Positions 27,238 to 61,424 of a stretch of 64,000 nucleotides of DNA are shown here, piece after piece. Every line of letters begins with the position of its first letter. Positions within the stretch are counted from its first letter, which is position 1. The position numbers were made by a program, and so were the translations under genes. The stretch covers positions 124,001 through 188,000 of the forward strand of contig JARWSJ010000004.1 in assembly GCA_029906195.1 (NCBI GenBank), read 5' to 3'. The notes under the pieces were generated by a model. That model was not told where the DNA came from. It did no database searches and saw only the letters and a list, made by a program, of their open reading frames with translations. The stretch is from Chitinophagaceae bacterium 26-R-25 (GTDB lineage: Bacteria; Bacteroidota; Bacteroidia; Chitinophagales; Chitinophagaceae).

Positions 27238-28626
27238 ATGAAATTGACTGGCTTGTGTTTAGCATTTGCTGCAGTCTGTATCGTTTTATCCTGTAGTTTT
27301 TCCAGCGGACAAGGGCAGAATTCGCCTAAACCGCAAAAGGCTGCCATTGACGACTCTTCCAACCTGATTCGCTGGCAAGTAAGGACCTCCGGCGCTTACC
27401 TCCTTTATGATGGCAATGAAGAGCCGTACCTGTACATCAATATTAAAAGCGGTGAAAATAAAAACGATAAGAAAAGAGTTCCTCTGAACATATCACTGGT
27501 GCTGGATCGCAGCGGTTCAATGGCCGGCGATAAGATAGAATACGCAAAGAAAGCGGCAATGTTTGTGGTGGATCAATTAAACAGCAATGATATTTTATCC
27601 ATCGTGAATTATGACGATAAAGTAGAAGTAACCAGTCCTTCCCAGCCTGTAAAAAATAAAGAGATGCTGAAGGCTGCCATAGACCAGATTTGCGACCGTG
27701 GATCGACTAATTTGTCGGGTGGCACCTTGCAAGGGTACTGGCAAGTGGCAAAAACAATGAAAGCAGGATATGTGAACCGTGTGCTGTTGCTAACTGATGG
27801 CCTCGCGAATGTTGGCATTACGGACCCCTCAGAATTAAAGAAACTGGTGGACGGTAAGTATAAGGAAAAGGGTATTGCGCTTTCCACGTTTGGGCTTGGC
27901 GCAGATTATAATGAGGATCTGCTAACCCTGCTGGCAGAAACTGGGCGTGCAAACTACTATTTCATAAAACAAGCCGATCAGATTCCCGGAATTTTTGCTA
28001 ATGAGTTAAAAGGCTTGTTAAGTGTGGTGGCGCAGAATGCGGCGGTTTCTGTTACATTGCCTGAGGGCATGGAGTGTGAGAAAGTGTATGGTTATCCATA
28101 CGAACTGAAGAACAACAAAGTCGAGATCAAATTCAATGATATTTATGCCAACGATGAGAAGGCCGTATTGATCAAACTAAAACCGGTAAATCGCCAGAAG
28201 GCAACTTTCTCTTTTAATTGCAACCTTTCTTACACGGACGTTGAAACGTTCCAGGAAAAGGCCCTTGCAGGAAGTGCAACTATTAATCTCACAAAAGAGA
28301 AAGAAAAAGTAGAAAAGTTTAGAGATCCTGTGGTGCAGGAGATGATTGCGGTGTTTACGTCTGCGGAAAAATTTGACGAAATACTTGCCGACGTTGACCG
28401 CGGCGACTATAAAACCGCAAAAAGGAAAGCGGATAGTACGCTAAAAACGATCAGGATATCTAAAGACAAATACAAGTCTGAAAAGCTTCAAAAGCAGGAG
28501 ATCCAATTGGAGGAATACACTAAAAACCTCGACAGCGTTCAAAACATGAAACTTGAAGATGTGAAGCTGTACCAGAAATCGAACAAGTCTGCGAATTATG
28601 AGGTGAAGAAGATGAAGCAACAATAA
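27238..28626 (+). CDS. VWA-domain lipoprotein
   Basis: Start at the ATG at 27238 because it opens a lipoprotein signal (LCLAFAAVCIVLSC). The 462-residue product carries a von Willebrand factor A domain: the metal-site motif DRSGSMAG at about residues 90-97, and VLLLTDGLANVG (about 180-191) for the third loop. A beta-sandwich follows (about 265-345), then a Lys/Glu-rich helical tail. VWA lipoproteins of this kind act in cell-surface adhesion or assembly; partners are unknown. It ends at the inverted repeat at 28624. Confidence 0.85.
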   Translation: MKLTGLCLAFAAVCIVLSCSFSSGQGQNSPKPQKAAIDDSSNLIRWQVRTSGAYLLYDGNEEPYLYINIKSGENKNDKKRVPLNISLVLDRSGSMAGDKIEYAKKAAMFVVDQLNSNDILSIVNYDDKVEVTSPSQPVKNKEMLKAAIDQICDRGSTNLSGGTLQGYWQVAKTMKAGYVNRVLLLTDGLANVGITDPSELKKLVDGKYKEKGIALSTFGLGADYNEDLLTLLAETGRANYYFIKQADQIPGIFANELKGLLSVVAQNAAVSVTLPEGMECEKVYGYPYELKNNKVEIKFNDIYANDEKAVLIKLKPVNRQKATFSFNCNLSYTDVETFQEKALAGSATINLTKEKEKVEKFRDPVVQEMIAVFTSAEKFDEILADVDRGDYKTAKRKADSTLKTIRISKDKYKSEKLQKQEIQLEEYTKNLDSVQNMKLEDVKLYQKSNKSANYEVKKMKQQ

Positions 28627-28721
28627 CTGAATAACTGAATAACCGAATAACTGAGTGGTTGAATGTTGTAGTGAACTATGAAAATAAACCACTCGGTTAT
28701 TTGGTTATTCAGTTATTCAGC
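28624..28721. repeat. Inverted pair of period-8 tandem repeats
   Basis: The left arm (about 28624-28662) repeats ACTGAATA, and the right arm (about 28686-28721) is its inverse; the right arm includes the end of metX. It closes two convergent genes and can form a long hairpin that would serve as bidirectional terminator. Same word as the element at 53270-53370. Confidence 0.8.
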
Positions 28722-29738
28722 TCCTTGTGCCAGCCATCTCGTCAATGCCTCAGAAATGATCTGAAACTCTACGAGAAAGCCGTCATGGCCGTAAGAGGAA
28801 TCAATTTCTATATATGTGGCGTTGGGTAGATGTTCTGCTATAAACTGCTGTTCTTTTGGCGGGCACAGAATATCGCTCGCGATTGCCATTACCAAAGCTC
28901 TTTGTGGAATGTGCCTTAAGACTGCAGCAAGATTGCCGCCGCGGCCGCGTGAAATGTTGTGCGAGTCCATGCTTTTGGTAAGCGCCCAATAGCTTTGCGC
29001 GGAAAATCTTTTTACCAGTTTATCGCCCTGGTAGTTGATGTATGAAGAGGCTTTAAAATTATCCAGCTTTTCATGATCGTGATCGGCTTGCTGATGCACC
29101 ATCATGTCGTAGTTGCGGTAGGTGAGCATGCCAATGGCTCTGGCAGCTTTCAGACCTTTTTCACCTGCGCCAATGCGTTTTTCTTTCCAGCTTTCATCTG
29201 CTTCAATGGCCAGTCGCTGCGCTGTATGAATGGCAATTCCCCAGGCACTTTCGGCCGGAGAAGTTGTGATAAGGAAAATGTTTTTGATCACCCCAGGCTC
29301 CATCACGCTCCACTCCAGCACCTGGTAGCCGCCCATGCTACCGCCCATCAGCAGGTGCACGGAGGAAATGCCCAAATGCTCCCTTAAAAGAATATGCGCT
29401 TTTACCATATCGCGGATGGTAATCAGCGGAAATTCGGCAAAATAAGACTGGCCGGTCACCGGATTGATGGATTGCGGGCCGGTACTGCCATAACAAGAAC
29501 CCAGGATATTGGCGCAGACGATGAAATATTTATTGGGATCGATGGCTGAATTCTCGCCCACCACCCCCTGCCACCAGTCGGTAGCGTCGCTATTGGCGGT
29601 GAGTGCATGGCAAACCCATACCACGTTACTTTTGCTGGCATTGAGGGTGCCGTAGGTATGGTATCCGATAGTCACTTCCGGCAGGGTATCACCGCTTTCA
29701 AGTTCAAAACTTTTTTTAATATGTAGCGTTTGCAACAT
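28713..29738 (-). CDS. metX: Homoserine O-acetyltransferase
   Basis: This 341-residue alpha/beta-hydrolase-fold enzyme transfers acetyl from acetyl-CoA to homoserine, the activation step of methionine synthesis. The nucleophile is Ser134 in MGGSMGGYQVLEW, the Asp lies in ASDILCPP and the His in SSYGHDGFLVE (about 318). Length and motif order match MetX. It is divergent from the osmC-like gene, followed by the PLP enzyme gene (30373) that would use its product. No attenuator or riboswitch fold is obvious in the 85-bp divergent spacer. Confidence 0.95.
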   Translation of the reverse strand: MLQTLHIKKSFELESGDTLPEVTIGYHTYGTLNASKSNVVWVCHALTANSDATDWWQGVVGENSAIDPNKYFIVCANILGSCYGSTGPQSINPVTGQSYFAEFPLITIRDMVKAHILLREHLGISSVHLLMGGSMGGYQVLEWSVMEPGVIKNIFLITTSPAESAWGIAIHTAQRLAIEADESWKEKRIGAGEKGLKAARAIGMLTYRNYDMMVHQQADHDHEKLDNFKASSYINYQGDKLVKRFSAQSYWALTKSMDSHNISRGRGGNLAAVLRHIPQRALVMAIASDILCPPKEQQFIAEHLPNATYIEIDSSYGHDGFLVEFQIISEALTRWLAQGAE

Positions 29739-29782
29739 CTAAAATCAAAATAATTAGGGTGCAAAGTAACGGCGTGTGATGT

Positions 29783-29790
29783 TACCTTTG
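29783..29790 (+). promoter_or_regulatory. TAnnTTTG promoter box upstream of osmC-like gene
   Basis: TACCTTTG lies 33 bases before the ATG at 29824, matching the Bacteroidota -7 consensus TAnnTTTG. On the opposite strand a weaker TACTTTG (about 29762-29768) could serve metX. Confidence 0.55.
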
Positions 29791-29823
29791 CTAAAATTTT
29801 TTTTCTTTTAAAATTTCTTCGCC

Positions 29824-30252
29824 ATGGTAAATATTGAGATAAACCTTTCTGAGCCCGGATACGGCTTTGAAGCAACAGACAGCATGGGACATGTAGTAAA
29901 AATGGACACAAGTCCCGAAACAGGCGGTAATAACTATGGAGCCAGACCAATGCAGGTGCTTTTAATGGGTCTTGGCGGTTGTAGCGGCATTGATGTGGTA
30001 AGTATTTTAAAGAAACAGCGCCAGGATATTACCCACTTTAAAATGTTTGTGGAAGCGGAAAGAGAAACCGGCAAAGAGCCCGCTCTTTGGAAAAGTGCCA
30101 AAATAGTGTTTGAAATGGGCGATTCTGTAGATGAAGACAAGGCAAAACGCGCCGCCCAGCTGTCTATGGAAAAATATTGCTCTGTAGCGGAAACATTGCG
30201 CAGAGCGGGTTGTGAGATCACGTGGGAAGTGAGAATGGTCGAGATGAGTTAA
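29824..30252 (+). CDS. OsmC-family protein
   Basis: The 142-residue protein has the two conserved cysteines of OsmC-type peroxidases, Cys53 in GGCSGIDV and Cys119 in EKYCSVAETL, in the usual positions. Members detoxify organic hydroperoxides or act in redox homeostasis. It lies between metX and metZ in a methionine-linked neighbourhood, a possible sulfur-redox link, though this is inference. It ends at a heptamer inverted repeat. Confidence 0.85.
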   Translation: MVNIEINLSEPGYGFEATDSMGHVVKMDTSPETGGNNYGARPMQVLLMGLGGCSGIDVVSILKKQRQDITHFKMFVEAERETGKEPALWKSAKIVFEMGDSVDEDKAKRAAQLSMEKYCSVAETLRRAGCEITWEVRMVEMS

Positions 30253-30336
30253 TAATTGAAAATTGAAAGTTGAAAATGGAAAATGAATGTTCTATGCAAA
30301 GTCATTTTCAATTTTCAATTTTCAACTTTCAATTCC
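30252..30336. repeat. Inverted pair of period-7 tandem repeats (ATTGAAA)
   Basis: The left arm (30254-30286) repeats ATTGAAA/GTTGAAA, the right arm (30302-30335) is the reverse complement, separated by about 15 bases. It lies between the osmC-like gene and metZ. Confidence 0.8.
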
Positions 30337-30372
30337 TAACAACTACAAACCAACAACTAAGAACTAAAAAAA

Positions 30373-31542
30373 ATGTCACATCATCCTATAACTAAAGTCA
30401 TCCGTACACAAGTGCCACGCACAGATGAGATGGAGCATTCTTCACCTTTGTTTCTTACCAGTAGTTTTTGCTACGATGATGCGGAAGAAATGCGTGCAAC
30501 ATTTGCGGATGAAAATGATAATAATATTTATACGCGATTCAGCAATCCTAACGTTCAGGAGTTTACTGACAGAATGGTAGCGCTGGAAGGTACGGAAGCT
30601 GGTTTTGCTACTGCCAGTGGCATGAGCGCAATTTTTGCATCGTTCATGACTTTTTTAAAGCAAGGCGATCACATAATTTCCTGCCGTTCCATTTTTGGAA
30701 GCACACATACCGTTATTACAAAGTATTTGTCCAAATACGGCATTGAATACACTTATGTGGATGCAAATGACGTGGCAAGCTGGGATGCGGCGGTAAAGCC
30801 GAACTCAAAAATGATTTTCCTGGAAACGCCTACCAATCCTGCATTGGATGTGATTGACCTTGAAGCAGCCGGGAAATTTGCCAGGAAGCATAATCTTTTG
30901 CTGAACGTAGACAATTGCTTTGCTACGCCAATCGGCCAGCGCCCGATTGATTATGGTGCAGACATTATCGTGCATTCTGCTACCAAGTGGCTCGATGGGC
31001 AAGGACGTGTGCTCGGTGGCGTTGTATTGGGCAGGAAAGAATTGATTCATGAAGTGTACCTGTTTTGCAGAAGTACCGGACCCTCTCTTTCTCCATTCAA
31101 TGCCTGGATATTGAGCCGTAGCCTCGAAACGCTGGAAGTACGCATGGAGCGTCATGCCTCCAACGCACTGAAAATAGCAAAGGCGCTGGAAGGTCATGAA
31201 AAAATAAGTTCCGTTCGCTATCCATTTTTGCAGTCGCATCCTCAGCATGAAATTGCTATGCGACAGATGTCAAATGGTGGTGGAATTGTGTGTTTTGAAT
31301 TAAAAGGTGGCCTGGAAGCTGGTCGTAATTTCCTGGATGCTTTGCAAATGCTGACACTTACTGCGAATCTTGGCGACACAAGAAGCATTGCTTCGCATCC
31401 TGCAAGCACAACACACGCTAAGCTGACCCACGAAGAGCGTGAAAAAGTTGGCATTACCCCGGGGCTCATCCGTATTTCCGTTGGCCTGGAAAACGTCAGC
31501 GATATTTTGAATGATATACTGCAGGCAGTAAATAGGAGCTAG
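30373..31542 (+). CDS. metZ: O-acyl-homoserine sulfhydrylase (PLP-dependent)
   Basis: The 389-residue enzyme of the Cys/Met metabolism PLP family binds PLP at Lys205 in HSATKWLDGQGRVLGG. YTRFSNPNVQEF (about 53-64), GMSAIFASF (about 83-91) and the phosphate-binding context fit the family. Together with metX next to it, the likely reaction is O-acetylhomoserine plus sulfide giving homocysteine (direct sulfhydrylation). Family members annotated as MetZ use O-succinylhomoserine; the choice of substrate cannot be read from sequence alone. It is followed by a G+C-rich terminator inside a heptamer repeat. Confidence 0.85.
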   Translation: MSHHPITKVIRTQVPRTDEMEHSSPLFLTSSFCYDDAEEMRATFADENDNNIYTRFSNPNVQEFTDRMVALEGTEAGFATASGMSAIFASFMTFLKQGDHIISCRSIFGSTHTVITKYLSKYGIEYTYVDANDVASWDAAVKPNSKMIFLETPTNPALDVIDLEAAGKFARKHNLLLNVDNCFATPIGQRPIDYGADIIVHSATKWLDGQGRVLGGVVLGRKELIHEVYLFCRSTGPSLSPFNAWILSRSLETLEVRMERHASNALKIAKALEGHEKISSVRYPFLQSHPQHEIAMRQMSNGGGIVCFELKGGLEAGRNFLDALQMLTLTANLGDTRSIASHPASTTHAKLTHEEREKVGITPGLIRISVGLENVSDILNDILQAVNRS

Positions 31543-31656
31543 GAAAGTCGAAAGTCAAAAGTCAAAATTCAGAAATTCAATACTGCTACTTAAAATAATC
31601 AGGTCCCCGCTCACGGGGACTTTTTTTTGACTTTTGATTTTTGACTTTTGATTTCA
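31543..31656. repeat. Inverted pair of period-7 repeats (AAGTCAA) around a terminator
   Basis: The left arm (about 31543-31579) repeats AAGTCGA/AAGTCAA, the right arm (about 31622-31656) is its inverse. Between them GTCCCCG-CTCA-CGGGGAC (31603-31620) with T8 forms a normal terminator for metZ. The rest of the 363-bp gap to 31905 holds no gene I can support. Confidence 0.8.
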
Positions 31657-31905
31657 TCGTGCCATTTTCTAAAAAATAGTCAGATGCTGATCTGTGTAAT
31701 TCCCCATTTTATCGATACATTGTACTTCGCATACGACCCAGACCTAATTTTATGAAATCTGCTTGTTTTTAAAAGCCAGTCTACCTGTGATAATTGTCCT
31801 TTCCTAAGACTTATCTTATTGCTAAAAAAATGGTTTGTTAACCGGATCTCCGAAAGAAGATCTGTTTGCATTATTGGATAAATTGCTTGAATACCGTACT
31901 TGGTC

Positions 31906-34900: not shown

Positions 34901-35412
34901 CAGTTAACCCAACACCGATCGTTAACGTACAACCAAATATTACATCGCTCGAAGGCGGTACTACACTGATGCCGGCGACTGCCTCCGGAAATAATTTATC
35001 GTACAACTGGCTGCCTCCAACTGCGATGGAGGATAGTCATTTACTCACGCCAACAATTTCGCCATCGAATGACATCACGTATACACTCACTGCGACATCT
35101 GCTGACGGCTGCTCAGCCAGCGCGGATGTAAATGTAAAAGTGCTGAAATATGTGAAGGTGCCGAATGCATTTTCTCCAAATGGCGATGGCATTCACGATA
35201 AATGGATCATCACGTCATTGTCCGACTATCCGGGTTGTGAAGTAGAAGTCTTTAACCGTTATGGTCAATTGGTGTATAGATCGGTTGGCTATGGCACCCC
35301 TTGGGATGGAAGCTTTAATGGCACCAAACTGCCTGTGGGAACCTACTACTGGGTAATAAAGCCGCACAATGGAAGGCAGCCGATAAGTGGGTACGTTGCG
35401 ATTATAATGTAA
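31906..35412 (+). CDS. T9SS-secreted PKD and IgGFc-binding-type surface protein
   Basis: About 1168 residues from the ATG at 31906; a TTG two codons earlier is also open. The signal peptide (MKKIYLFTLLILSFWSTKAQ) is followed by an IgGFc-binding-type region (GKDFWIGYGNHVKMYATN onward, about 25-420), beta-sandwich and PKD-like repeats (for example FGDNTDSLFVQSPTHIYAKQG), and a C-terminal type-B T9SS sorting domain (NAFSPNGDGIHDKW, VFNRYGQLVYRS, GTYYWVI, about 1085-1168). Type-B domains direct export through the type IX secretion system and surface attachment in gliding Bacteroidota. The protein probably acts as an adhesin. Confidence 0.9.
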   Translation: MKKIYLFTLLILSFWSTKAQDFSNKGKDFWIGYGNHVKMYATNGQEQMALYITSDVNTTGTVSISGIFSQNFTVTANQITEIAIPQSARLLKDGLSDYGIHVTAAKAVVVYAHIYASAVSGATVCLPTNTLGKEYYSINYTQKSNEDPAYSYFFVIATEDNTTVEITPAQATIGGWAAGSVNTVTLNTGQVYQVLANKDLTGSTIRSIANGTGNCKRIAVFSGSGKVYINTPENTGCNTADNLYQQVYPTNTWGKKYITVPSSGRPLNIYRVIKSNPAAQVYLNGTAIPAGSFVNNLYYEFYNNTTNVIESDMPIMVAQYFPTQACNANGGGNGTIGTYNDPEMIFINPVEQTIRQVTLNSTSHYLIKEQYINIAVKNEGAALSSMRLDGSPIANYFSTLPQDSKYSYAQISVGQGTHNLSCDSGYNAIAYGMGDHETYGYSAGTNLVDLYQYIMIKNSYATVKFPAACKDVPFQFYNVFPYQPLSLKYQFNGLFNDTTINSPVYDSTWTVGAKTLYRYKLDRYYSVHTPATYPISVIANNPTVTNGCTGEQQIDYDLAVFEKPKADFSYDFSGCFKDVVNFKEITDPNNSRQIILTQWDMGHGKIIDTAGPKYTFKAIGDSVVKYSYITDVGCLSDTAVRTVSVNPLPVAQFSTSLPLCETKAVTFINQSSAARGNVTKWHWNFGDNTDSLFVQSPTHIYAKQGNYNVSLLVESDSGCRSSVLTIPVTVNYQPLANFGAPRSCLNDGLATFTDSSSIGDNSILTYKWDLNYGTSPAGTYPTNANPQWHYTSVGNYQAKLTVTSNKGCTSDTIKSFTINGTVKQAKFAINNTNFCSNTALDITNTTQITFGNIVKLEIWWDYNNDPSDKTTDDYPTNGKKYTHLYKSFTSPSGAKSFAVHYKAYSGASCFDEFDTTITLKQTPVLAFDSLSPMCQEALPIALTAASNTDGFSGTATYVGAGVVSGKTFDPRRAGVGKFPIKYIFAASNGCSADSTRFITVNPTPIVNVQPNITSLEGGTTLMPATASGNNLSYNWLPPTAMEDSHLLTPTISPSNDITYTLTATSADGCSASADVNVKVLKYVKVPNAFSPNGDGIHDKWIITSLSDYPGCEVEVFNRYGQLVYRSVGYGTPWDGSFNGTKLPVGTYYWVIKPHNGRQPISGYVAIIM

Positions 35413-35579
35413 TTGAAAATTGAAAGTTGAAAATTGAAAATGCCATCTAAATTGAAAGTTGAAAATTGAAAATTGAAAATGAAGCTCGGCAAAACCCCTT
35501 TGAATATTATCAAGCCTAAAATAAATGAGGGCTCTTCCTGAGAATGCATTTTCAATTTTCAACTTTCAATTTTCAATTC
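35411..35579. repeat. Inverted array of period-7 repeats (ATTGAAA)
   Basis: Two left arms (35411-35442 and 35450-35481) repeat ATTGAAA with GTTGAAA variants; the right arm (about 35548-35579) is their inverse and reaches the stop of the next gene. It lies between two convergent genes. Confidence 0.8.
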
Positions 35580-36982: not shown

Positions 36983-36996
36983 AAAAGCAAATTTTT

Positions 36997-37112
36997 AATA
37001 AAAAGTAAGAAGTAAAAAGTAAAAAAAGCGTTAACACTAAATCGTTCTGAATAAAATTAGAGAGTCCCGATGGTCAACCATTTTTGCCTTTTTAATTTTG
37101 CCTTTTTACTTT
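36997..37112. repeat. Period-7 repeat region (AAAAGTA) between genes
   Basis: The left arm (36999-37030) repeats AAAAGTA/AGAAGTA; the right side (about 37079-37111, overlapping the end of the next gene) is a looser inverse with CTTTTTA and GCCTTTTT words. It is less regular than the other elements. Confidence 0.5.
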
Positions 37113-37580
37113 AAACCCCCATGTAATATAAAACTCTGCAACCACTTCTCCGGCTTCATTTACGCCCGTTGACTTCACCCGTAATGTTTCTCCTTCACCG
37201 GATTGTTTTGCTTTTGCAATTGTGTTTTTAATCGCCTCTCCATCGTTACAGGTGAACGTTGTAACGCCTGTTGCTTTTTTTGTAAAGTTCGCTTCCAAGT
37301 TTCTTACCAGCATGGACACAGCAGGATCGGATTGATAACAATGCGCCATTGCCAAAACGCCCGTACTCAGTTCCCCTGCCATACCGAGACAGGCGAAATA
37401 GGTGGAGCGGAATGGATTTTTTGAAAACCATTTGAAAGGAACCGTAACGGTACAGGAGGCTTCGTCAGCATGCTTTACACGAACACCGCTGAAATAAGCT
37501 GCCGGTAAATTCGACAAAAGAAAAAGCTTGTACTTAAACGAATTGTTTACGAGTTGTAGAAATTTATTTTCATTTGGCAT
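37092..37580 (-). CDS. DUF4442 / hotdog-type thioesterase-like protein
   Basis: About 162 residues from the ATG at 37580; an upstream TTG is a weaker option. The pattern GVRVKHADEASCTVTVPFKWFSKNPFRSTYFACLGMAGELSTG matches DUF4442, a hotdog fold related to acyl-CoA thioesterases. The catalytic site cannot be fixed from sequence. It stands alone between two genes on the same strand. The substrate is unknown. Confidence 0.75.
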   Translation of the reverse strand: MPNENKFLQLVNNSFKYKLFLLSNLPAAYFSGVRVKHADEASCTVTVPFKWFSKNPFRSTYFACLGMAGELSTGVLAMAHCYQSDPAVSMLVRNLEANFTKKATGVTTFTCNDGEAIKNTIAKAKQSGEGETLRVKSTGVNEAGEVVAEFYITWGFKVKRQN

Positions 37581-38137: not shown

Positions 38138-38164
38138 CTCCTAAGTTAAAACAAGAAAGAAGAT

Positions 38165-38287
38165 GGAACGCAGATTTTCAAGATTTTCATGATTTTGATG
38201 ATTTGAAATTAAAGGAAGCAAGTGTCAGCTAGCCTCAAATTTCAAAATCATAACAAATCATGACAATCATGAAAATCTGTGTTCGTT
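38165..38287. repeat. Inverted pair of period-9 repeats (GATTTTCAT)
   Basis: The left arm (38166-38210) repeats GATTTTCAA/GATTTTCAT/GATTTTGAT; the right arm (38235-38287) is its inverse. It lies between the protease gene and the broken thioredoxin gene. Confidence 0.75.
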
Positions 38288-38290
38288 CTG

Positions 38291-40062: not shown

Positions 40063-40207
40063 GAACAATTAATAATTAACAATTAATAATTAATAGTGCT
40101 GCAGTCCTTGTAGGTTGCAGCTTTCTGTTTTTGACGCTGCCAAACAAAGACAGAGCAAGGTTTCAGGCAGGTGAGTTATTAATTCTTAATTATTAATTAT
40201 TAATTCG
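40063..40207. repeat. Inverted pair of period-7 repeats (AATTAAT)
   Basis: The left arm (40066-40095) repeats AATTAAT/AATTAAC, the right arm (40174-40206) is the inverse, with a G/C-mixed centre. It fills most of the 351-bp gap between the peptidase and the histone-like gene; nothing else supportable lies there. Confidence 0.8.
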
Positions 40208-40879: not shown

Positions 40880-40887
40880 ATAAAAAA

Positions 40888-45164: not shown

Positions 45165-45192
45165 TGTACGATGTACGAAGTACGGTGTACGA
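45165..45192. repeat. Four tandem copies of a 7-bp word (TGTACGA)
   Basis: TGTACGA, TGTACGA, AGTACGG, TGTACGA in a row at 45165-45192. Same 7-bp period as the inverted heptamer elements, but with no inverted partner nearby. Confidence 0.7.
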
Positions 45193-45308
45193 GATGCTTT
45201 ATCGGAAACGCATCTCTAATTGAATTCAATTTGGAGCTTAAGATAAACGCGTGAACTCACTTTGAAAATCAGTGCAAATCAGTCCAATCTGCGTCATCGG
45301 CGTGCTCT

Positions 45309-47385: not shown

Positions 47386-47477
47386 TTAATTGAAAGTGGA
47401 AAATTGAAAGTTGAAAATGAAGAGTGCATTTGGCGTTTTCTCTCATCATTTTCAATTTTCAACTTTCAATTTTCCAT
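47386..47477. repeat. Inverted pair of period-7 repeats (ATTGAAA)
   Basis: The left arm (about 47386-47420) repeats GAAAATT/GAAAGTT, the right arm (47446-47477) is the inverse. It lies between truA and the next gene upstream on the minus strand. Confidence 0.8.
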
Positions 47478-48112
47478 TACTCTATTCTTATTTTCTCCCC
47501 GAGATACCTCGGTTTTGTTCCAATCAAATAATCGATATAAGCCTTGCATCTTGCCAGCTTTTCACGCTGCTTCGTTTTAAAACCGGCATATTTTACAACA
47601 TCTTTCGCATTGTAACCAATCGCATCGATCCCTTCTTTTTGGGCAATAAAAATCGCTCTTTCATTGTGAAACTGCTGTGAAATAACAGTTACGGACTGCT
47701 GACCGAAAATTTCTTTTAAACGCACCACCGAGTCAAAAGTTCTAAAACCGGCATAATCAAGAATGATAACCGAAGAATCAATGCCTCTGCGAATAAGGTC
47801 ATTCCTCATATCTTCAGGTTCGTTGTATTCCTTTCGGCCGTTATCTCCACTTATAACAAGATATTTTATTTTTCCCGCTTTCAGCAAATCGGCAGCGGCA
47901 TCTATTCTATATTGATAGTATAAATTAGGATAGCCATTGCTTAGCAGCTTAGAACAACCCAATAACAATCCCACTTTATTGTAGGGAATAGATGCTGTAT
48001 CATTATACAACTTGTTACTCGCCGCACTTTTAATACTGGCATTCGCAATAAATACAAAAGCTACAGCAATGGCAATTGCAATTGAAGCAGCCCAAAATAT
48101 TCTTTTTATCAT
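47477..48112 (-). CDS. ElyC/SanA/YdcF-family membrane protein (DUF218)
   Basis: The 211-residue protein starts with a membrane segment (about 5-25). The DUF218 motifs are GLLLGCSKLLSNG (about 48-60), YLVISGDNGRKEYNEPEDMRN (about 84-104) and SVTVISQQFHNERAIFIAQ (about 138-156). SanA-type proteins influence envelope integrity and vancomycin sensitivity; ElyC acts in envelope glycan assembly. Which applies here is unknown. Confidence 0.8.
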   Translation of the reverse strand: MIKRIFWAASIAIAIAVAFVFIANASIKSAASNKLYNDTASIPYNKVGLLLGCSKLLSNGYPNLYYQYRIDAAADLLKAGKIKYLVISGDNGRKEYNEPEDMRNDLIRRGIDSSVIILDYAGFRTFDSVVRLKEIFGQQSVTVISQQFHNERAIFIAQKEGIDAIGYNAKDVVKYAGFKTKQREKLARCKAYIDYLIGTKPRYLGEKIRIE

Positions 48113-48180: not shown

Positions 48181-48212
48181 CATTTTCAATTTTCAACTTT
48201 CAATTTTCAATT
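48181..48212. repeat. Single arm of period-7 repeat (TTTTCAA)
   Basis: This stretch repeats TTTTCAA/CTTTCAA words. No clear inverse lies nearby, so it is a one-armed version of the element. Confidence 0.65.
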
Positions 48213-48217
48213 GTCCA

Positions 48218-52375: not shown

Positions 52376-52405
52376 AGCTCCCCGAGAAATCCGGGAGCTT
52401 TTTTT
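52376..52405 (+). terminator. Rho-independent terminator of peptidase gene
   Basis: AGCTCCC (52376-52382), loop, GGGAGCT (52393-52399), T7. Confidence 0.85.
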
Positions 52406-52421
52406 ATGCCAAGGACAGAGA

Positions 52422-52515
52422 GAAGTTGCTAGTTGCTAGTTGTTAATTGTTAGCCTAAAATAGCGACTATTCAAAAACGAAGCCTAACAACGAACAACTA
52501 ACAACCAACAACTTG
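52422..52515. repeat. Inverted pair of period-7 repeats (AGTTGCT / TAACAAC)
   Basis: The left arm (about 52422-52453) repeats AGTTGCT, AGTTGTT, AATTGTT; the right arm (about 52481-52514) repeats TAACAAC, GAACAAC, CAACAAC. Both arms keep period 7, and they are inverse to each other. Confidence 0.75.
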
Positions 52516-52550
52516 TTTCTCTTAATTTTGCCATACAAAAACGAAATACC

Positions 52551-53267: not shown

Positions 53268-53269
53268 AG

Positions 53270-53370
53270 GCCGAATAACTGAATGACTGAATAACTGAGT
53301 GATTATTTTCGATTTTGCACTACAACAATCGACCACTCAGTTATTCAGTCATTCAGTTATTCAGTTATTA
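53270..53370. repeat. Inverted pair of period-8 repeats (ACTGAATA)
   Basis: The left arm (53270-53303) repeats ACTGAATA, the right arm (53331-53370) is its inverse and reaches the end of the next gene. Same word as at 28624-28721, 25 kb away. Confidence 0.8.
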
Positions 53371-53679
53371 AATGGCGTCATACACCACTACCTTTTGCCA
53401 CAACTGCGAGTTGTCCTCCACAAACTTTAAGTGAATAGGATCAACCTGGTAACTGTCCTGATCTGCTGCATTATCAAAAATGATCATCCAGGAAAGAGAA
53501 TAAGTATTATCGATCACTCCGCGGTTGGTTGCCGCAGGTTTGCCAATATGAAAAGATTTTATGGTCGAAATTTCTGTTAGAGATTGCAAGCCTTTTTCCA
53601 ATTGAGCCAAATCGCCTTGATCAGTAGGATTTTTCAACCAGAAAAATACGTGATGGATAAATACTTGTTTTAATTCCAT
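53368..53679 (-). CDS. Dabb (stress-responsive A/B barrel) domain protein
   Basis: This 103-residue protein has the pattern IHHVFFWLKNPTDQGDLAQLEKGLQSL, an early strand pair with His then a helix, typical of dimeric alpha/beta-barrel Dabb proteins. Function in bacteria is mostly unknown. The stop lies inside the right arm of the inverted repeat. Confidence 0.8.
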   Translation of the reverse strand: MELKQVFIHHVFFWLKNPTDQGDLAQLEKGLQSLTEISTIKSFHIGKPAATNRGVIDNTYSLSWMIIFDNAADQDSYQVDPIHLKFVEDNSQLWQKVVVYDAI

Positions 53680-53696
53680 GGTTATTGATTTATAAA

Positions 53697-54023: not shown

Positions 54024-54070
54024 TTTTCGGGTGTTTCGCTGCTGACATCAAAACAGCGGCCTTCGTTGCA

Positions 54071-54865: not shown

Positions 54866-54878
54866 GCGTAAAATTCAA

Positions 54879-54899
54879 AGCAGGCCTTTCGACCTGCTT
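54879..54899 (-). terminator. Hairpin between TPM genes
   Basis: AAGCAGG (54879-54885) and CCTGCTT (54893-54899) form a stem between the two TPM genes. The T run is short, so partial readthrough is likely. Confidence 0.5.
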
Positions 54900-54906
54900 A
54901 TGATAA

Positions 54907-55365: not shown

Positions 55366-55384
55366 CAGAAATAAAATTTAATAA

Positions 55385-55987: not shown

Positions 55988-56040
55988 GGTTGTTTAAAGT
56001 TTATGATTAAAGATACAATCTAAGATGGTTATTTGTTTAA

Positions 56041-56160
56041 AATGCTTCACGCTTAATGCGAAACGCTCAACGCCCAACGCTTAAAGCAGAATGCTTATGC
56101 TCAGCCACACGCATGTTGCGCCTAAAGCGCGTTAAGCGTTAGGCTTTAAGCCTTAAGCCC
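56041..56160. repeat. Inverted pair of period-7 repeats (ACGCTCA), G+C-richer
   Basis: The left arm (56041-56090) repeats ACGCTCA/ACGCCCA/ACGCTTA, the right arm (about 56110-56160) is an irregular inverse, reaching the end of the riboflavin gene. Unlike others, the words contain many G and C. Confidence 0.7.
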
Positions 56161-56748: not shown

Positions 56749-56755
56749 GTCTGCA

Positions 56756-56792
56756 AATTAGGAATTAGAAATTATGAATTGGGAATTAGAGG
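56756..56792. repeat. Period-7 repeat (GGAATTA) upstream of ribE
   Basis: GGAATTA, GAAATTA, TGAATTG, GGAATTA in a row; a partial inverse (CAAATTTCGAATTCC) lies near 56865-56881. Looser than the other elements. Confidence 0.6.
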
Positions 56793-56905
56793 GGCGTTTT
56801 ATTTATTAATGGTTAATAATCAGGATGTAAGTGAAGTTTAACATTAAAAATGAAATATCAAATCTCAAATTTCGAATTCCTCTTGTTTTTTTATTTGAAA
56901 CTATT

Positions 56906-56938
56906 TACCTTTGCACTCCAAAATCGCCTAAAGGAGGT
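56906..56938 (+). promoter_or_regulatory. rpsU promoter box and strong Shine-Dalgarno
   Basis: TACCTTTG (56906-56913) matches the TAnnTTTG -7 consensus. AAAGGAGGT (56930-56938) is a near-perfect Shine-Dalgarno site, 11 nt before the ATG at 56950. Bacteroidota mostly lack such sites; rpsU is a known exception linked to bS21 sequestering the anti-Shine-Dalgarno. Confidence 0.8.
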
Positions 56939-56949
56939 ATATATAAAAT

Positions 56950-57144
56950 ATGTTAATCATAGACTCAAAAGATTGCGAAAACATCGACAAAGCGCTTAAA
57001 AAGTACAAGAAGAAGTTCGAGAAAGCAAAAACATTGCTTCAGTTGAGAGAGCGTCAGACTTTTACTAAGCCTTCTGTAAAACGCCGTACACAAGTACTAA
57101 AGGCAATTTACAAGCAACAAGTAGCAACAGGTAAATTCGATTAA
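56950..57144 (+). CDS. rpsU: Ribosomal protein bS21
   Basis: The 64-residue protein (MLIIDSKDCENIDKALKKYK...) is the small-subunit protein bS21: the KFEKAKTLLQLRERQTFTKPSVKRR core is typical. In Bacteroidota bS21 with bS18 and bS6 hides the anti-Shine-Dalgarno of 16S rRNA; the strong site in front of this gene suggests autogenous control. It precedes xerC/D and hpf. Confidence 0.95.
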   Translation: MLIIDSKDCENIDKALKKYKKKFEKAKTLLQLRERQTFTKPSVKRRTQVLKAIYKQQVATGKFD

Positions 57145-57207
57145 GTTATTTAAGCTTTTTCATAGTGGGATAGCTGCAAAGCCTTAGCTTTGTGGCTATC
57201 TTAGTTT

Positions 57208-58107
57208 ATGGAAACAGCACCATCCATTCTTTCTCCATTCCTTGATTATCTGCAGTTTGAGAAACGCTATTCTCAACACACCGTCCGCGCTTATCAGGAC
57301 GACCTGAAACAATTTTTCGATTATTTAACCAGCAATTTCGGGCAAACGTCTATCCAGGAGATTAATTCCTCCATGGTAAGAACCTGGATGGCATCATTGA
57401 AAGATGGAAAACTTACTTCCAAAACAATCAACCGGAAAGCATCTTCGCTAAAATCATTCTTTAAATACCAGCTAAAACTCGGCATTATCGAGTCAACACC
57501 GATGACCAACGTTTCTGCACCGAAAATTGGCAAAAGACTGCCTTCGTTTGTTATGGAAGACGACATGAACGTATTGCTAAAGGAAATTGCTTTCCCTGAC
57601 GACTGGGACGGCAAAACGACCCAACTACTCATTGAAGTTTTTTACGCAACAGGCATTCGTTTAAGTGAGCTGATAAACCTGAAAGAACAGAGCGTTAACC
57701 GTAGCTCAACTTCAATTAAGGTTTTAGGAAAAGGAAATAAAGAACGCATCATTCCGGTAAATAAACAATTGATAGAGAACCTTGTAGCGTATCAAAAAGA
57801 CAAGCGGAAGCTCTTCGCGGACTTTGACAGCGAATATCTTTTTGTAACCCCCAAAGGCAAAAAACTTTACGCCAAGTACGTGTATCTCAGGGTAAAATCG
57901 TACCTCTCGGAGGTAACCACGCTGCAGAAGAAAAGCCCTCACATTTTGCGCCACACTTTCGCCACACACCTTACCAATCATGGCGCAGATCTCAATGCAA
58001 TAAAAGAGCTCCTCGGGCACAGTAGTTTAGCGTCCACACAGGTTTACACCCATAATTCCATCGAAAAATTAAAGGAAGCGTACAAAAAGGCGCACCCTAA
58101 GGCATGA
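57208..58107 (+). CDS. xerC: Tyrosine recombinase XerC/XerD
   Basis: This 299-residue recombinase has the active-site residues Arg151 (TGIRLSEL), Lys173 region (LGKGNKER), His245-xx-Arg248 (HILRHTFATH), His271 (LGHSSLASTQ) and Tyr280 (QVYTH). It resolves chromosome dimers at dif. Size and motifs fit XerC/D; which of the two is uncertain. It lies between rpsU and hpf, away from the prophage, so it is a housekeeping gene rather than the phage integrase. Confidence 0.85.
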   Translation: METAPSILSPFLDYLQFEKRYSQHTVRAYQDDLKQFFDYLTSNFGQTSIQEINSSMVRTWMASLKDGKLTSKTINRKASSLKSFFKYQLKLGIIESTPMTNVSAPKIGKRLPSFVMEDDMNVLLKEIAFPDDWDGKTTQLLIEVFYATGIRLSELINLKEQSVNRSSTSIKVLGKGNKERIIPVNKQLIENLVAYQKDKRKLFADFDSEYLFVTPKGKKLYAKYVYLRVKSYLSEVTTLQKKSPHILRHTFATHLTNHGADLNAIKELLGHSSLASTQVYTHNSIEKLKEAYKKAHPKA

Positions 58108-58283
58108 AAATTAGACGTTGTTAAAAAGTTGGCAATCCTGAGAAAAATCAGAAGTCATTATTTGGAAAGGATAGGAGGTTGGTTTATCTTCATAGTCCCT
58201 CTAACATTATTATTTTATTAAATAATGAGTGTGAAAATGTTAGTTCTTTAATTTATTGTTTCACGTTTAAAATTGCGATTGTT

Positions 58284-58586
58284 ATGGACGTTAAAATTCA
58301 GACTGTGCACTTCGACGCAGATTCTAAATTGATTGATTTCGTAAATTCTAAAATTCAAAAACTTCCTACCTTTCATGACAGGATTATTAAGGTTGATGTG
58401 TTTTTAAAACTTGACAATGTAATTCATACAATTAAAGACAAAGTCGCAGAGATCAGGGTTCATGTTCCCAAACACAACTTTTTTGTAAAAGCCAGTTCAA
58501 AATCATTTGAAGAATCTTTTGACTGCGCACTTGATTCACTCGTAAATCAGATGAAAAGAAAAAAAGAAAAACGCTTAGCAGCATAA
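58284..58586 (+). CDS. hpf: Ribosome hibernation promoting factor
   Basis: Start at the ATG at 58284 (MDVKIQTVHFDADSKLIDFV), which begins the conserved fold; in-frame codons upstream are not supported. The 100-residue short HPF/RaiA-type protein has the beta-alpha-beta core (VDVFLKLDN, KVAEIRVHVPKHNFFVKA, EESFDCALDSLVNQMKRKKEKRL). It binds the 30S decoding centre during stationary phase. It is followed by a strong terminator. Confidence 0.9.
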   Translation: MDVKIQTVHFDADSKLIDFVNSKIQKLPTFHDRIIKVDVFLKLDNVIHTIKDKVAEIRVHVPKHNFFVKASSKSFEESFDCALDSLVNQMKRKKEKRLAA

Positions 58587-58596
58587 AAAATACTTC

Positions 58597-58625
58597 AGAC
58601 CTCCTTTTAGGAGGTCTTTTTTTTT
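58597..58625 (+). terminator. Rho-independent terminator of hpf
   Basis: AGACCTCCT (58597-58605), 3-nt loop, AGGAGGTCT (58609-58617), T9. Confidence 0.9.
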
Positions 58626-58841
58626 AATATGACTTCGTCACAACGTGGAATTTTATCAAGTGAGCACTACTTTCTCGAAAAATATTTTCGTCGCATCTTT
58701 AATTCATTGCACATGCTTACTTTTGCAGTGTTTTCAATGGTTTCAGCGAATTTGAAATGATTTTTTAAATCAAAAAAGCAGCTTTAAAAATTGCAAATCA
58801 GAAGCAATAATTAAAAAAGCTAAAAAAAAGTTGAATCAAAA

Positions 58842-58872
58842 TTTGGGTATTATTCGAATTCTCTTACCTTTG
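58842..58872 (+). promoter_or_regulatory. tRNA-tuf operon promoter
   Basis: TTTG (58842-58845) and TACCTTTG (58865-58872) are separated by 19 bp, the Bacteroidota -33/-7 arrangement. It lies about 125 bases before the first tRNA of the operon. The rest of the gap 58626-58996 is AT-rich, with no gene I can support. Confidence 0.75.
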
Positions 58873-58996
58873 CCTTCCCAAAAAACACAGGGCGTTGCGA
58901 AACGAAAAAAGCTCTTAGATAATATTGATTTTCAAACTATAGCAAGGAGTTGCCATCTCCAAAAAGGTGGTAAAAATCCAGTCAAAAATATAGTAA

Positions 58997-59069
58997 GCCG
59001 GAGTAGCTCAGTTGGTAGAGCAACTGATTTGTAATCAGTAGGTCGCGGGTTCGAGTCCCATCTTCGGCT
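58997..59069 (+). tRNA. tRNA-Thr(TGT)
   Basis: 73 nt; acceptor GCCGGAG/CTTCGGC with discriminator T; anticodon stem ACTGA/TCAGT with loop TTTGTAA, anticodon TGT. First tRNA of the tuf operon, the same order as E. coli thrU-tyrU-glyT-thrT-tufB. Confidence 0.95.
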
Positions 59070-59070
59070 C

Positions 59071-59169
59071 TTAATTTAGTTTGAAAGATTGAAAATGTAA
59101 GGTTGAAAACAAAAGGCATCATGTTCTTTTAATTTTCATATTGTCACATTTTCAAATTTTCAAATTAAA
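59071..59169. repeat. Inverted repeat between tRNA-Thr and tRNA-Tyr
   Basis: TTGAAA words in the left arm (about 59073-59110) and their inverse in the right arm (about 59128-59169). It separates two tRNAs. Confidence 0.7.
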
Positions 59170-59172
59170 GTC

Positions 59173-59255
59173 GGGCAGGTTCCAGAGCGGCCAAATGGGG
59201 CGGACTGTAAATCCGCTGTCTTTCGACTTCAGAGGTTCGAATCCTCTCCTGCCCA
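59173..59255 (+). tRNA. tRNA-Tyr(GTA)
   Basis: 83 nt; acceptor GGGCAGG/CCTGCCC with discriminator A; anticodon GTA in loop CTGTAAA; long variable arm as expected for tRNA-Tyr. Confidence 0.95.
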
Positions 59256-59259
59256 CCGA

Positions 59260-59350
59260 CAAATTTGAAATTAGAGAGTTTGAAAATTTGAAAATGAAGT
59301 TTAAATGCTAGTTTGATTTTCAAATTTTCAAATTTTTATATTTTCAAATT
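59260..59350. repeat. Inverted repeat (TTTGAAAA) between tRNA-Tyr and tRNA-Gly
   Basis: TTTGAAAA occurs in tandem in the left arm (59260-59296); the right arm (59314-59350) is the inverse. Period 8. Confidence 0.8.
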
Positions 59351-59357
59351 GTTACGT

Positions 59358-59430
59358 GCGGAAGTAGCTCAATTGGTAGAGCGATAGCCTTCCAAGCTAT
59401 AGGTTGCGGGTTCGATCCTCGTCTTCCGCT
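59358..59430 (+). tRNA. tRNA-Gly(TCC)
   Basis: 73 nt; acceptor GCGGAAG/CTTCCGC; anticodon loop CTTCCAA, anticodon TCC. Confidence 0.95.
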
Positions 59431-59435
59431 CTTTG

Positions 59436-59512
59436 TTTTCAGTTAGCAGTCGGCAGTCGTTTAATATTCAATTGTTAGGTGCTGCAAAGCTGAAAAAAAA
59501 CTGCCAACTGAG
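59436..59512. repeat. Period-7 inverted repeat (AGTCGGC) between tRNA-Gly and tRNA-Thr
   Basis: The left arm (59436-59461) repeats AGTTAGC, AGTCGGC, AGTCGTT; the right arm (about 59490-59512) carries AACTGCC, AACTGAG. Period 7. Confidence 0.65.
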
Positions 59513-59517
59513 TATAT

Positions 59518-59589
<72 letters not shown>

Positions 59590-59598
59590 CATCATAAA

Positions 59599-59667
59599 GC
59601 CGTAGCTCAGAAATGAGCATCCCGATTTTGATCGGGAAGGTCGAGAAACTAATTCTCTTCAACGGCT
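59599..59667 (+). ncRNA. tRNA-Thr-derived degenerate copy 1
   Basis: GCCG (59599-59602) and CGGC (59663-59666) pair as shortened acceptor; GCTC/GAGC keeps the D stem; CCCGAT/ATCGGG forms a new anticodon-like stem with loop TTTG; GAGAA/TTCTC keeps a T stem. Anticodon and standard loops are lost, so it cannot decode, but the folding plan is kept. The function, if any, is unknown. Confidence 0.65.
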
Positions 59668-59676
59668 CACTATAAA

Positions 59677-59744
59677 GCCGGGCTCAGAAATGAGCATCCC
59701 GATCTTGGATCGGGAAAGTTGAGAAAAAATTCTCTTCAACGGCC
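59677..59744 (+). ncRNA. tRNA-Thr-derived degenerate copy 2
   Basis: GCCG (59677-59680) and CGGC (59740-59743) at the ends; D-arm GCTC/GAGC; CCCGATC/GATCGGG with loop TTG, one base pair longer than in copy 1; GAGAA/TTCTC. It is closely related to copy 1, with added pairs. Confidence 0.6.
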
Positions 59745-59754
59745 CAAGCGAAAA

Positions 59755-59796
59755 GCCGTGAATCAATCTCACTTAAAAATGGGATTTATCAACGGC
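59755..59796 (+). ncRNA. tRNA-Thr-derived degenerate copy 3 (shortest)
   Basis: GCCG (59755-59758) and CGGC (59793-59796) still pair, but the inside (42 nt in total) has lost the D and anticodon stems. The most decayed of the three; 120 bases then separate it from tuf. Confidence 0.5.
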
Positions 59797-59916
59797 TAGC
59801 CATTTTTTCAGAAACTGAGGTTTAGGTAAATGGTGATTAAGCAGATGTTTCCTGTTGTTAAAAACAGTATTCATATTTAGAAAACAAATTTAAAACCGCA
59901 ACTAAAAACTATAACG

Positions 59917-61104
59917 ATGTCAAAAGAGACCTTTAAGAGGGATAAACCCCACGTTAACGTTGGTACTATTGGTCACGTTGACCACGGTAAAACAACTTTG
60001 ACTGCAGCTATCACCGATGTTCTGAGCAAGAAAGGTTTGGCGCAGAAGAAAAATTATGATGAAATTGATGGTGCACCTGAAGAAAAAGAAAGAGGTATCA
60101 CTATCAATACAGCTCACGTAGAATATCAAACCGCTAGTCGTCACTATGCTCACGTTGACTGTCCAGGTCACGCTGACTATGTGAAAAACATGATTACTGG
60201 TGCTGCACAGATGGATGGTGCTATTCTTGTGGTTGCTGCTACAGACGGTCCTATGCCTCAAACTCGTGAGCACATCCTGCTTGCTCGTCAGGTAGGTGTA
60301 CCTCGTATGGTGGTATTCATGAATAAAGTTGACCTTGTTGACGATCCTGAATTATTGGAACTTGTGGAAATGGAAATTCGTGAGTTGTTGACTGAAAAAG
60401 GTTTTGACGGCGATAACACTCCTATCATTAAAGGTTCTGCAACTGGCGCTTTGGCTGGTGAAGCACAATGGGTTGAGAAAATCAACGAATTGATGGAAGC
60501 TGTTGATACTTACATTCCTCTTCCTCCACGTCCGGTTGATCAAGCATTCTTGATGAGCGTTGAGGACGTATTCTCTATCACTGGTCGTGGTACTGTTGCT
60601 ACTGGCCGTATCGAGAGAGGTCGTATTAAAGTGGGTGAAGGCGTTGAAATCGTAGGTTTGATCGAAAAACCACTTACTTCTACCGTTACAGGTGTTGAGA
60701 TGTTCAAAAAATTATTGGACGAAGGTGAAGCTGGTGATAACGCAGGTCTATTATTGCGTGGTATTGAGAAAAAAGATATCCGTCGTGGTATGGTAATTTG
60801 CAAACCAGGTTCTATCACTCCGCACACTGAATTCAAAGGTGAAGTTTACGTATTGAGCAAAGAAGAAGGTGGACGTCACACTCCATTCTTTAACAAATAC
60901 CGTCCTCAGTTCTACTTCCGTACTACAGACGTAACTGGTGAAGTTACTCTTCCAGAAGGAACTGAAATGGTTATGCCAGGCGATAACACTTCATTGAAAG
61001 TTACTTTGATTCAACCTATTGCGATGGAAAAAGGTCTTAAATTCGCTATCCGCGAAGGTGGACGTACAGTAGGTGCTGGTCAGGTTACTGAAATCGTGAA
61101 ATAA
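59917..61104 (+). CDS. tuf: Elongation factor Tu
   Basis: The 395-residue GTPase brings aminoacyl-tRNA to the ribosome. G1 is GHVDHGKT (19-26), DCPGH and NKVD follow, and domains 2 and 3 are complete to the end [15 protein letters not shown]. It is transcribed with four tRNAs and the tRNA-derived leader, and followed by tRNA-Trp and secE-nusG. Confidence 0.98.
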
Positions 61105-61193
61105 TATAGCTAAGCCATTAGCTTTAAGCCTATCTTTAGCAAGTTTCTTAAATTTGCTGATTAAAAAAGGTCTTTTTGCTAATGGCTTTTTAC

Positions 61194-61264
61194 ACGGGCA
61201 TGGTGCAACGGTAGCATACGGGTCTCCAAAACCTTTGATCTGGGTTCGAATCCTAGTGCCCGTG
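61194..61264 (+). tRNA. tRNA-Trp(CCA)
   Basis: 71 nt; acceptor ACGGGCA/TGCCCGT with discriminator G; anticodon CCA in loop CTCCAAA. It lies between tuf and secE. Confidence 0.95.
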
Positions 61265-61270
61265 CTGATT

Positions 61271-61424
61271 AATTTGTAAGTTTGAAAATGTGTAAATTTG
61301 AAAATGAAATAAGTTTCAGATTTTCACATTTTTTGCGCTTTTAGAATAGCTGAAAATTGGAGCGATCTGAAAAGCAAGAAGGCAGCATTTTTCAAATTTT
61401 CGAATTTTCAAATTTTCAAATTCA
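61271..61424. repeat. Inverted array of TTTGAAAA words between tRNA-Trp and secE
   Basis: The left arm (61274-61312) repeats TTTGAAAA; two right arms (about 61316-61334 and 61386-61424) are inverse TTTTCAAA runs. Confidence 0.75.

Follow-up and report, generated by a model that had tools for sequence, protein, structure and literature searches.

Introduction

Cyanobacterial genomes carry short tandemly repeated repetitive (STRR) sequences, several heptamer families in the spacers between genes, much like the families described here; to our knowledge, inverted pairing lies outside the definition of STRR. In the sections of Rehm et al. (2015, PMC4692102) considered here, arrays of GGGAATC form 70 and 75 inverted convergent pairs in two Xanthomonas genomes. 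These arrays mostly hold four units, are 89-93% intergenic, lie on average 28 nt from the 5′ neighbouring open reading frame and are few between divergent genes (8 and 7%); they vary between close species, and none are given for two Xac plasmids. The same sections describe GGGGA(C/T)T repeats in Nostoc. The TAACTGA repeats of Beggiatoaceae, Cyanobacteria and five Bacteroidetes, as far as described in the sections considered of MacGregor (PMC4679880), are mostly direct sets of one word, which in the main genome mostly lie just before start codons, with one inverted in 170. REPINs (doublets of repetitive extragenic palindromic, REP, sequences) have a characteristic length and RAYT genes nearby, according to the pages considered of Bertels and Rainey (2011, PMC3116915). 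In this study we describe inverted tandem arrays, with a period of mostly 7 bp, in a stretch of 64,000 nucleotides from a Pinibacter genome (Bacteroidota; 6.51 Mb), G000:C4:124001-188000, hereafter called the window, and in further sequence of this genome and its relatives.

The sections considered of both heptamer papers give no accepted origin or role for such repeats in distant bacteria (PMC4692102, PMC4679880). We compared the own genome (G000/G0) with P. aurantiacus MAH-26 (G001/G1) and P. soli MAH-24 (G002/G2). Since these three related species show word swaps, unit gains, nesting and loop flips, the origin and spread of such repeats become testable in a genus with named strains. The arrays are best explained by dispersed repeat families that recombine at the DNA level, a reading to which we give about even confidence.

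Results

Tandem arrays are abundant in Pinibacter spacers

From the own genome 1.06 Mb was sampled, consisting of 660 kb and a 400-kb hold-out. Arrays were scored with a fixed test (identity of at least 81% at lag p over 21 positions), and dinucleotide shuffles in 500-bp blocks served as control. In the window this test gave 14 arrays at lag 7, five at lag 8 and one at lag 9, all past position 27000, and 20 shuffles of the window gave 0 at these lags. A sequence-only reading of this DNA had named 18 sites with tandem words in inverted arms. Tandem Repeats Finder listed arrays with a unit of 7, 8, 9 or doubled length at 17 of them (59436 was unlisted), and the inverted partner beat the best of 50 shuffles at 14, in support of both the arrays and the inverted architecture. 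Partners at 48181, 56756 and 59436 stayed below the shuffles, and at 45165 only a small palindrome beside the array scored above them.

The proposed excess over shuffled sequence was also found in the genome samples: a first 400 kb held 69, 28 and 4 arrays at periods 7, 8 and 9, and the untouched second 400 kb held 77, 28 and 4, compared to 0 after shuffling in both. The array phenomenon is real and strong, and the held-out sequence replicated it. Within 220 bp, 195 of 269 own arrays in 660 kb had an inverted partner, and none did after shuffling; in the relative G079 this was so for 29 of 99.

Location in spacers rather than in genes or prophage, as had been proposed, was confirmed as well. 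According to a crude gene caller, on which all intergenic and coding assignments rest, 232 of 273 arrays in 660 kb were intergenic, 30 straddled a gene end and 11 were coding. Arrays were present in 27/79 divergent, 42/96 convergent and 96/380 codirectional spacers, and 295 of the 666 own spacers of 40-800 bp (1.06 Mb) carried at least one arm of the 14 families listed below. In a 260-kb region that surrounds the window, arrays were found in 68/117 spacers of 80 bp or longer where both neighbouring genes have an ortholog in the two other species, in 5/16 where one has and in 0/13 where neither has (both versus neither, Fisher p = 3e-5); an ortholog here means one within the 200 kb sampled per relative. 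Seven of these last 13 spacers belong to a prophage stretch, in which 0/9 spacers carried arrays. Three of seven proteins tested from the window before 27000 match phage families.

Arms belong to recurrent families

An arm is about 25-45 bp long and repeats a unit of 7, 8 or 9 bp imperfectly about 4 to 5 times, the unit length being tied to the family. Period 7 is used by the ATTGAAA, GTTGAGA, AATTAGG, AATTAAT, AAAGTCA, AGTTGTT, ACGCTTA, GTACGAT and AGTAGCC types, period 8 by GAATAACT, AATTTGAA and GCAAAGGC, and period 9 by the CATGATTTT and ATTACACGG types. The common words among these 14 are A+T-rich. The view that every locus has its own word without conserved sequence had to be given up: 13 of the 14 families occur at 5 or more places, GCAAAGGC reaching the label threshold once in 1.06 Mb, and a 33-bp consensus describes the ATTGAAA arm at 55 places in 660 kb. 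The GAATAACT arm occurs 47 times in the same 660 kb. The ATTGAAA arm is sharply bounded on its inner side and fuzzy on its outer side, and the GGAACGCAG family shows the opposite. Family labels required a score of 15, which misses decayed arms; 19 labels were given in 423 shuffled spacers. Families and inward strands were defined mostly on the first 660 kb, the inward strand being taken from same-family pairs, so the hold-out covers array counts, purine polarity, arm pairing and stop distance, and the word list lies outside it.

In the hairpins of the own genome, both other Pinibacter species and G079, the median stem was 34 bp and the median loop 47 bp, with a 10-90% range of 17-107 bp for the loop. 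Loops contain local sequence, at times with an ordinary terminator or a further hairpin (nesting). Loops as shared cassettes were rejected: the initial search was dominated by nested arms, and once the arms were masked 133 of 137 loops lacked a match elsewhere in the 660 kb and in 400 kb of two relatives. The other 4 matched another place, at least two of them via an unrelated GGGCGAAT palindrome. The masked loops, nearly all unique in the sequence sampled, also provide no conserved interior of the kind that a miniature inverted-repeat transposable element has. Non-tandem palindromic repeats share loops and spacers with the arrays, namely the GTAGAGACG..., GTAGGGGCGAAT... and CCTGCCCGAC...GGCGGG types (L032, L040 and L042; G000:C4 255045, 260559 and 281228). 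The CCTGCCCGAC...GGCGGG palindrome lies cleanly inside a AATTTGAA arm in P. aurantiacus and P. soli, where no target duplication was seen by eye.

Arms point into the spacer irrespective of pairing

Adjacent arms of the same family were inward in 190 cases, direct in 29 and outward in one (own genome, 1.06 Mb). The same strand reads from the flanking gene into the spacer at each edge, often with one arm per edge. Spacers with exactly two arms of unlike families followed the same order, being inward in 13/14 own cases, 3/3 in P. aurantiacus and 5/5 in P. soli; pairs of close words were excluded beforehand, and some of these places are orthologous and therefore dependent. None of the 13 own inward mixed pairs was complementary above its own 30 shuffles, and 3 of them may retain a decayed partner (scores 10-13). 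The single direct case has well-paired arms and probably represents a GAATAACT hairpin with a wrong label. Because unlike, non-pairing arms are still inward, the inverted order is set by spacer position and not by base pairing. Hairpin formation is a consequence where both edge words agree. In spacers with a single arm, 52 of 74 own arms pointed away from the nearer gene.

Arms supply stop codons at gene ends

Arms had been said to run up to or into stop codons. Consistent with this, 88 of 178 array edges facing the 3′ end of a gene lay at -10..+9 from the stop and 15 further inside, compared to 23/148 near the start for edges facing a start. The hold-out gave 49/93 near a stop versus 10/69 near a start. 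In many of 40 inspected cases, the stop was the first unit's own TAA, TAG or TGA. Arms contained 1132 inward stop codons versus 889 in dinucleotide shuffles, and 65% of arms had stops in all three inward frames versus 29% after shuffling, although units within an arm are not independent. The C-terminal length differed between orthologs for 14/92 genes with an array at the stop versus 12/204 without (p = 0.013); for divergent C-terminal tails of at least 3 residues the difference was less clear (17/92 versus 22/204, p = 0.09). These results suggest that gene ends and C-termini are under rewriting by repeats that carry their own stop codons. Some process seems to keep rewriting gene edges.

Words, units and loops change between species

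Identity at four-fold sites was 0.74 between the own genome and P. aurantiacus, 0.66 between the own genome and P. soli and 0.68 between P. aurantiacus and P. soli. When word identity was compared at orthologous loci, as had been suggested, 46 of 98 three-way orthologous spacers were armless in all, 27 had the same families in all and 25 differed, so that 27 of 52 armed spacers kept their families. Among the 25, the own genome differed in 9, P. aurantiacus in 6, P. soli in 6 and all in 4; one of them, 273919, results from a miscalled gene start, gene calls remove part of 87611 and 213454, and at 84576 and 89882 the only difference is between close words. Two window sites serve as examples. At 30252, ATTGAAA arms are present here versus AATTAAT arms in both other species, and at 28624 an ACGCTTA hairpin replaces the centre in P. 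aurantiacus, inside remnants of the GAATAACT hairpin.

Orthologous hairpins of the own genome and P. aurantiacus were of the same family in 22 cases and of different families in 8, five of which lie between close words. In 18 same-family pairs of these two species the loops were direct in 11, inverted in 3 (one weakly) and unrelated in 4. Same-family hairpins of the own genome and P. soli had 9 direct, 8 unrelated and one ambiguous loop, and those of P. aurantiacus and P. soli 9 direct and 5 unrelated loops. Orthologous arms gained units in 7- or 8-bp steps. P. soli has lost the loop in its ortholog of the spacer at G000:C4 246540, and the arms there are fused into a short palindrome, which is likely a hairpin deletion.

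Array sites of the window

The sites are listed in Table 1. In genome G010 the spacer between tRNA-Thr and tRNA-Tyr is only 14 bp. At 59573-59743 of the window the 3′ half of tRNA-Thr(GGT) recurs as 2-3 partial copies in tandem (about 78 bp), apparently in lower copy number in P. aurantiacus.

Table 1. Arms, hairpins and single arrays in the window (positions count from its first nucleotide)
Position	Feature	Period (bp)	Strand	Remarks
28620..28728	GAATAACT hairpin	8		Between convergent genes; stop codon of upstream gene comes from the outer repeat
30248..30340	ATTGAAA hairpin	7		A single AGTTGTT-type arm follows and extends to about 30367
31543..31655	AAAGTCA arms	7		Enclose an ordinary G+C-rich terminator at 31603-31628
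35411..35578	ATTGAAA arms, two left and one right			Convergent genes on both sides; the other species have GTTGAGA arms
36993..37115	AAAGTAA/AAAGGCA arms	7		Weak fold, z -0.8
38161..38289	GGAACGCAGATTTTCATGATT hairpin	9
40067..40205	AATTAAT arms	7		Divergent spacer; P. soli is without them
45165..45195	GTACGAT single array			No partner
47387..47479	ATTGAAA hairpin
48181..48215	ATTGAAA right arm		- (inward strand)	No partner of its own; degenerate AGTTGTT arm at opposite spacer edge
52417..52520	AGTTGCT/AGTTGTT hairpin			Directly after an ordinary terminator
53273..53374	GAATAACT hairpin			Arms kept and loop inverted in P. aurantiacus
56044..56158	ACGCTTA hairpin
56756..56789	AATTAGG single array		+
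59075..59169	AATTTGAA-like arms	8		Between tRNA-Thr and tRNA-Tyr; in all three Pinibacter genomes
59262..59350	AATTTGAA hairpin	8		Between tRNA-Tyr and tRNA-Gly
61268..61425	AATTTGAA arms	8		Between tRNA-Trp and next gene

Occurrence in other genomes

When 20 stretches from 19 further genomes of the order were searched, 27 arrays were found (one after shuffling), and nine stretches had none. One stretch of G092, picked for its matches, reached the density of the own genome (7 in 16 kb). The named relatives outside Pinibacter had few arrays. In G079:C1 (L112-L120), 83, 24 and 4 arrays at periods 7, 8 and 9 were found in 180 kb, most of these nine stretches having been picked for matches. G079 represents another genus of this family that is rich in arrays, and its vocabulary is wider (AGCTGAT, AATGTGC, GGTATCA, AGTCAAT, GTAAGAC, AAAGCTT). 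In a sample of 395 genomes from the phylum, which did not include P. aurantiacus, P. soli and G079, only the own genome had the GAATAACT hairpin pattern. The GAATAACT hairpin of 53270 gave short partial matches in 2 plasmid records and the ATTGAAA hairpin of 30252 in 3 phage records.

Discussion

Dispersed recombining families as the preferred explanation

Comparison of the three genomes shows that families share a consensus, that words differ at the same place, that units step and hairpins nest, and that loops have been inverted, lost or replaced at places that kept their arms. Arms may have been copied between loci in single-stranded or broken DNA, either by template switching or in a step resembling transposition, after which paired arms would promote loop inversion and loss. 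They would persist only at genes that retain a proper end; the stop codon often comes from the outermost unit, and units of 7 or 8 bp put further stops in other frames. Our best reading is that the arms resemble REP doublets in action, as dispersed, non-coding, hairpin-forming sequences that spread within a genome, and they are not filed here as REPINs.

Several observations weigh against dispersed recombining families. Among 15 alignments inspected by eye, few with a clean insertion, no target duplication was seen; since no clean insertion with target duplication was found, we infer mobility and have not seen it. Judged from the masked sequences, the unique loops do not fit a simple exchange of loop cassettes. 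Between the own genome and P. aurantiacus, identity was 0.83 for arms, 0.66 for loops, 0.90 for outer flanks and 0.93 for array-less spacers; the loops lie below the four-fold sites of these two species, and the arms lie above them, which could mean function, yet below array-less spacers. Ordinary terminators were fewer in convergent spacers with arrays (15/57) than in those without (24/52; p = 0.045), a hint of a terminating effect there. None of the candidate enzymes tracked the arrays. Matches to Y1 transposases were found in 69/99 relatives regardless of array density, and the best own match contains stop codons. A reverse transcriptase as the engine was rejected, there being no RVT_1 match in the array-rich P. 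aurantiacus and P. soli. In the GAATAACT family the two arms of a locus mirrored each other (p = 0.004, hold-out), as expected of a paired unit.

This mirroring was clear only in GAATAACT. It was weak in AATTAGG (p = 0.02 pooled and 0.40 in the hold-out) and did not exceed family likeness in ATTGAAA, AATTAAT and AATTTGAA; for AAAGTCA the first set gave p = 0.70, and the hold-out had too few pairs. All families together gave a pooled p = 0.02 and 0.48 in the hold-out alone. Pairing does not hold the arms as a rule, and the hairpin-templated process considered in the sequence-only reading is not general. Loss of SbcCD was rejected as the sole cause: SbcD had no match in any of the three Pinibacter genomes and one far below the cut-off in G079, but as only 17 of 99 relatives passed this cut-off, its lack can at most be permissive.

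Alternative explanations

The main rival for the orientation rule, though an improbable one in our view, is selection on the sense strand: slippage and copying would be random, and a purine-rich, stop-filled strand would be tolerated after a stop codon and a pyrimidine-rich one before a start, which would set orientation and survival. Under such selection, arms would be expected to face inward whatever the gene arrangement and without any pairing, which is what was seen, and to abut stop codons. It does not account for the usual same word at both edges, for the GTACGAT and GCAAAGGC words, which lack a stop codon, or for the GGAACGCAGATTTTCATG family, which is pyrimidine-rich inward and still keeps the inward order. 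Single arms in divergent spacers had no clear preference in the own genome (5 of 12 away, 7 toward), although 7/7 pointed away in P. aurantiacus and P. soli together.

Still less likely is a role as bidirectional terminators or insulators, in which the transcript of either strand would form a hairpin whose 5′ arm is rich in purines and whose 3′ arm is rich in U. Left arms were indeed purine-rich in 93% of 101 own cases, and 10 of 12 folded window stretches gave a DNA hairpin with z <= -2, one of the other two holding one arm only; the slight deficit of ordinary terminators in array-bearing convergent spacers points the same way. Against this role, arms are common in divergent spacers and so are not restricted to 3′ gene ends, the inward mixed arms are unpaired, and ordinary terminators are equally frequent in codirectional spacers with (22/141) and without (38/232) arrays. 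Wobble in these spacers favoured the sense over the antisense strand (150 versus 122) without significance (p = 0.10). The tests for terminator or RNA-hairpin function were mostly negative, and on the preferred reading arms are not kept mainly as transcription terminators or RNA hairpins; that they are no ordinary terminator family had already been claimed from the sequence, and the structural RNA role considered there found no clear support. Wobble-type arm mismatches, counted in the own genome and relatives, favoured the plus strand at positive GC skew (186 to 103), with 36 to 40 and 38 to 43 elsewhere. The latter count, at negative skew, is no reversal, and the pattern looks as if a replication-strand mutation bias had been recorded.

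We regard as doubtful that the arms are healing scars at broken chromosome ends, where 3′ ends would have been extended by repeats from a short template in a telomerase-like manner. If true, end healing would explain why the same strand is found at both edges, why the word is usually shared but sometimes differs, why outward pairs are rare, why loops are unrelated and why rounds are nested, and bacterial spacers would be framed by telomere-like additions with several templates.

Equally hard to credit is a Y1 (REP-associated) transposase that would move the arms as mobile doublets similar to REPINs. The arms do form inverted doublets in many copies with a variable loop, and Y1 genes are present in the genus; however, the presence of these genes does not track array density, the best own match contains stop codons, the loop lengths are widely spread, none of seven arm profiles has a GTAG or CGTC end tag, and mixed-family pairs are ordered as well.

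Neutral slippage, with tandem repeats born independently at each place, is the least probable: it fits the orthologous arms that differ in unit number and the array at 45165, which by eye has 4 units here, 2 in P. aurantiacus and none in P. soli, but as a full account it is inconsistent with a shared 33-bp arm genome-wide, with swapped loci that gain words already forming a family and with the strict orientation.

Comparison with known repeat systems

The sections considered of the papers cited above allow a comparison with three described systems. The arrays share with REPINs the inverted doublet, a less conserved spacer, hairpin formation and dispersal in extragenic space. They differ in that the arms consist of tandem units, the loop length is variable and many families follow one spacer grammar. 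With the TAACTGA repeats they have in common that heptamer arrays lie between genes, in several phyla including some Bacteroidetes; in contrast to those direct sets of a single word, the arrays described here are inverted and use many words.

The closest likeness is to the heptamers of Xanthomonas and Nostoc, as far as the sections considered describe them: these are also short intergenic tandem arrays, period 7 dominates here, and convergent inverted pairs are found here too. The nearest precedent is therefore the single-word GGGAATC pairs, and inverted heptamer pairs are already known; with 70 and 75 such pairs reported in part of that paper (PMC4692102), the earlier statement that the nearest known repeats are not inverted pairs is not supported. 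The heptamers there have one G-rich word and a G-quadruplex theme, whereas many words and units of 7, 8 or 9 bp are used here, and divergent genes, between which few arrays are reported in Xanthomonas, have arrays in 27 of 79 spacers here. Word swaps, nesting, loop inversion and the inward order of unlike arms also set the present arrays apart from the Xanthomonas pairs. A literature search, with most subscription journals outside its scope, returned no description of multi-word inverted arrays in Bacteroidota, and the multi-word, edge-oriented turnover is new within the literature searched. What the Pinibacter arrays add to the precedent is many words with their own unit lengths, an inward rule without pairing, the exchange of words at orthologous places, nesting and loop inversion.

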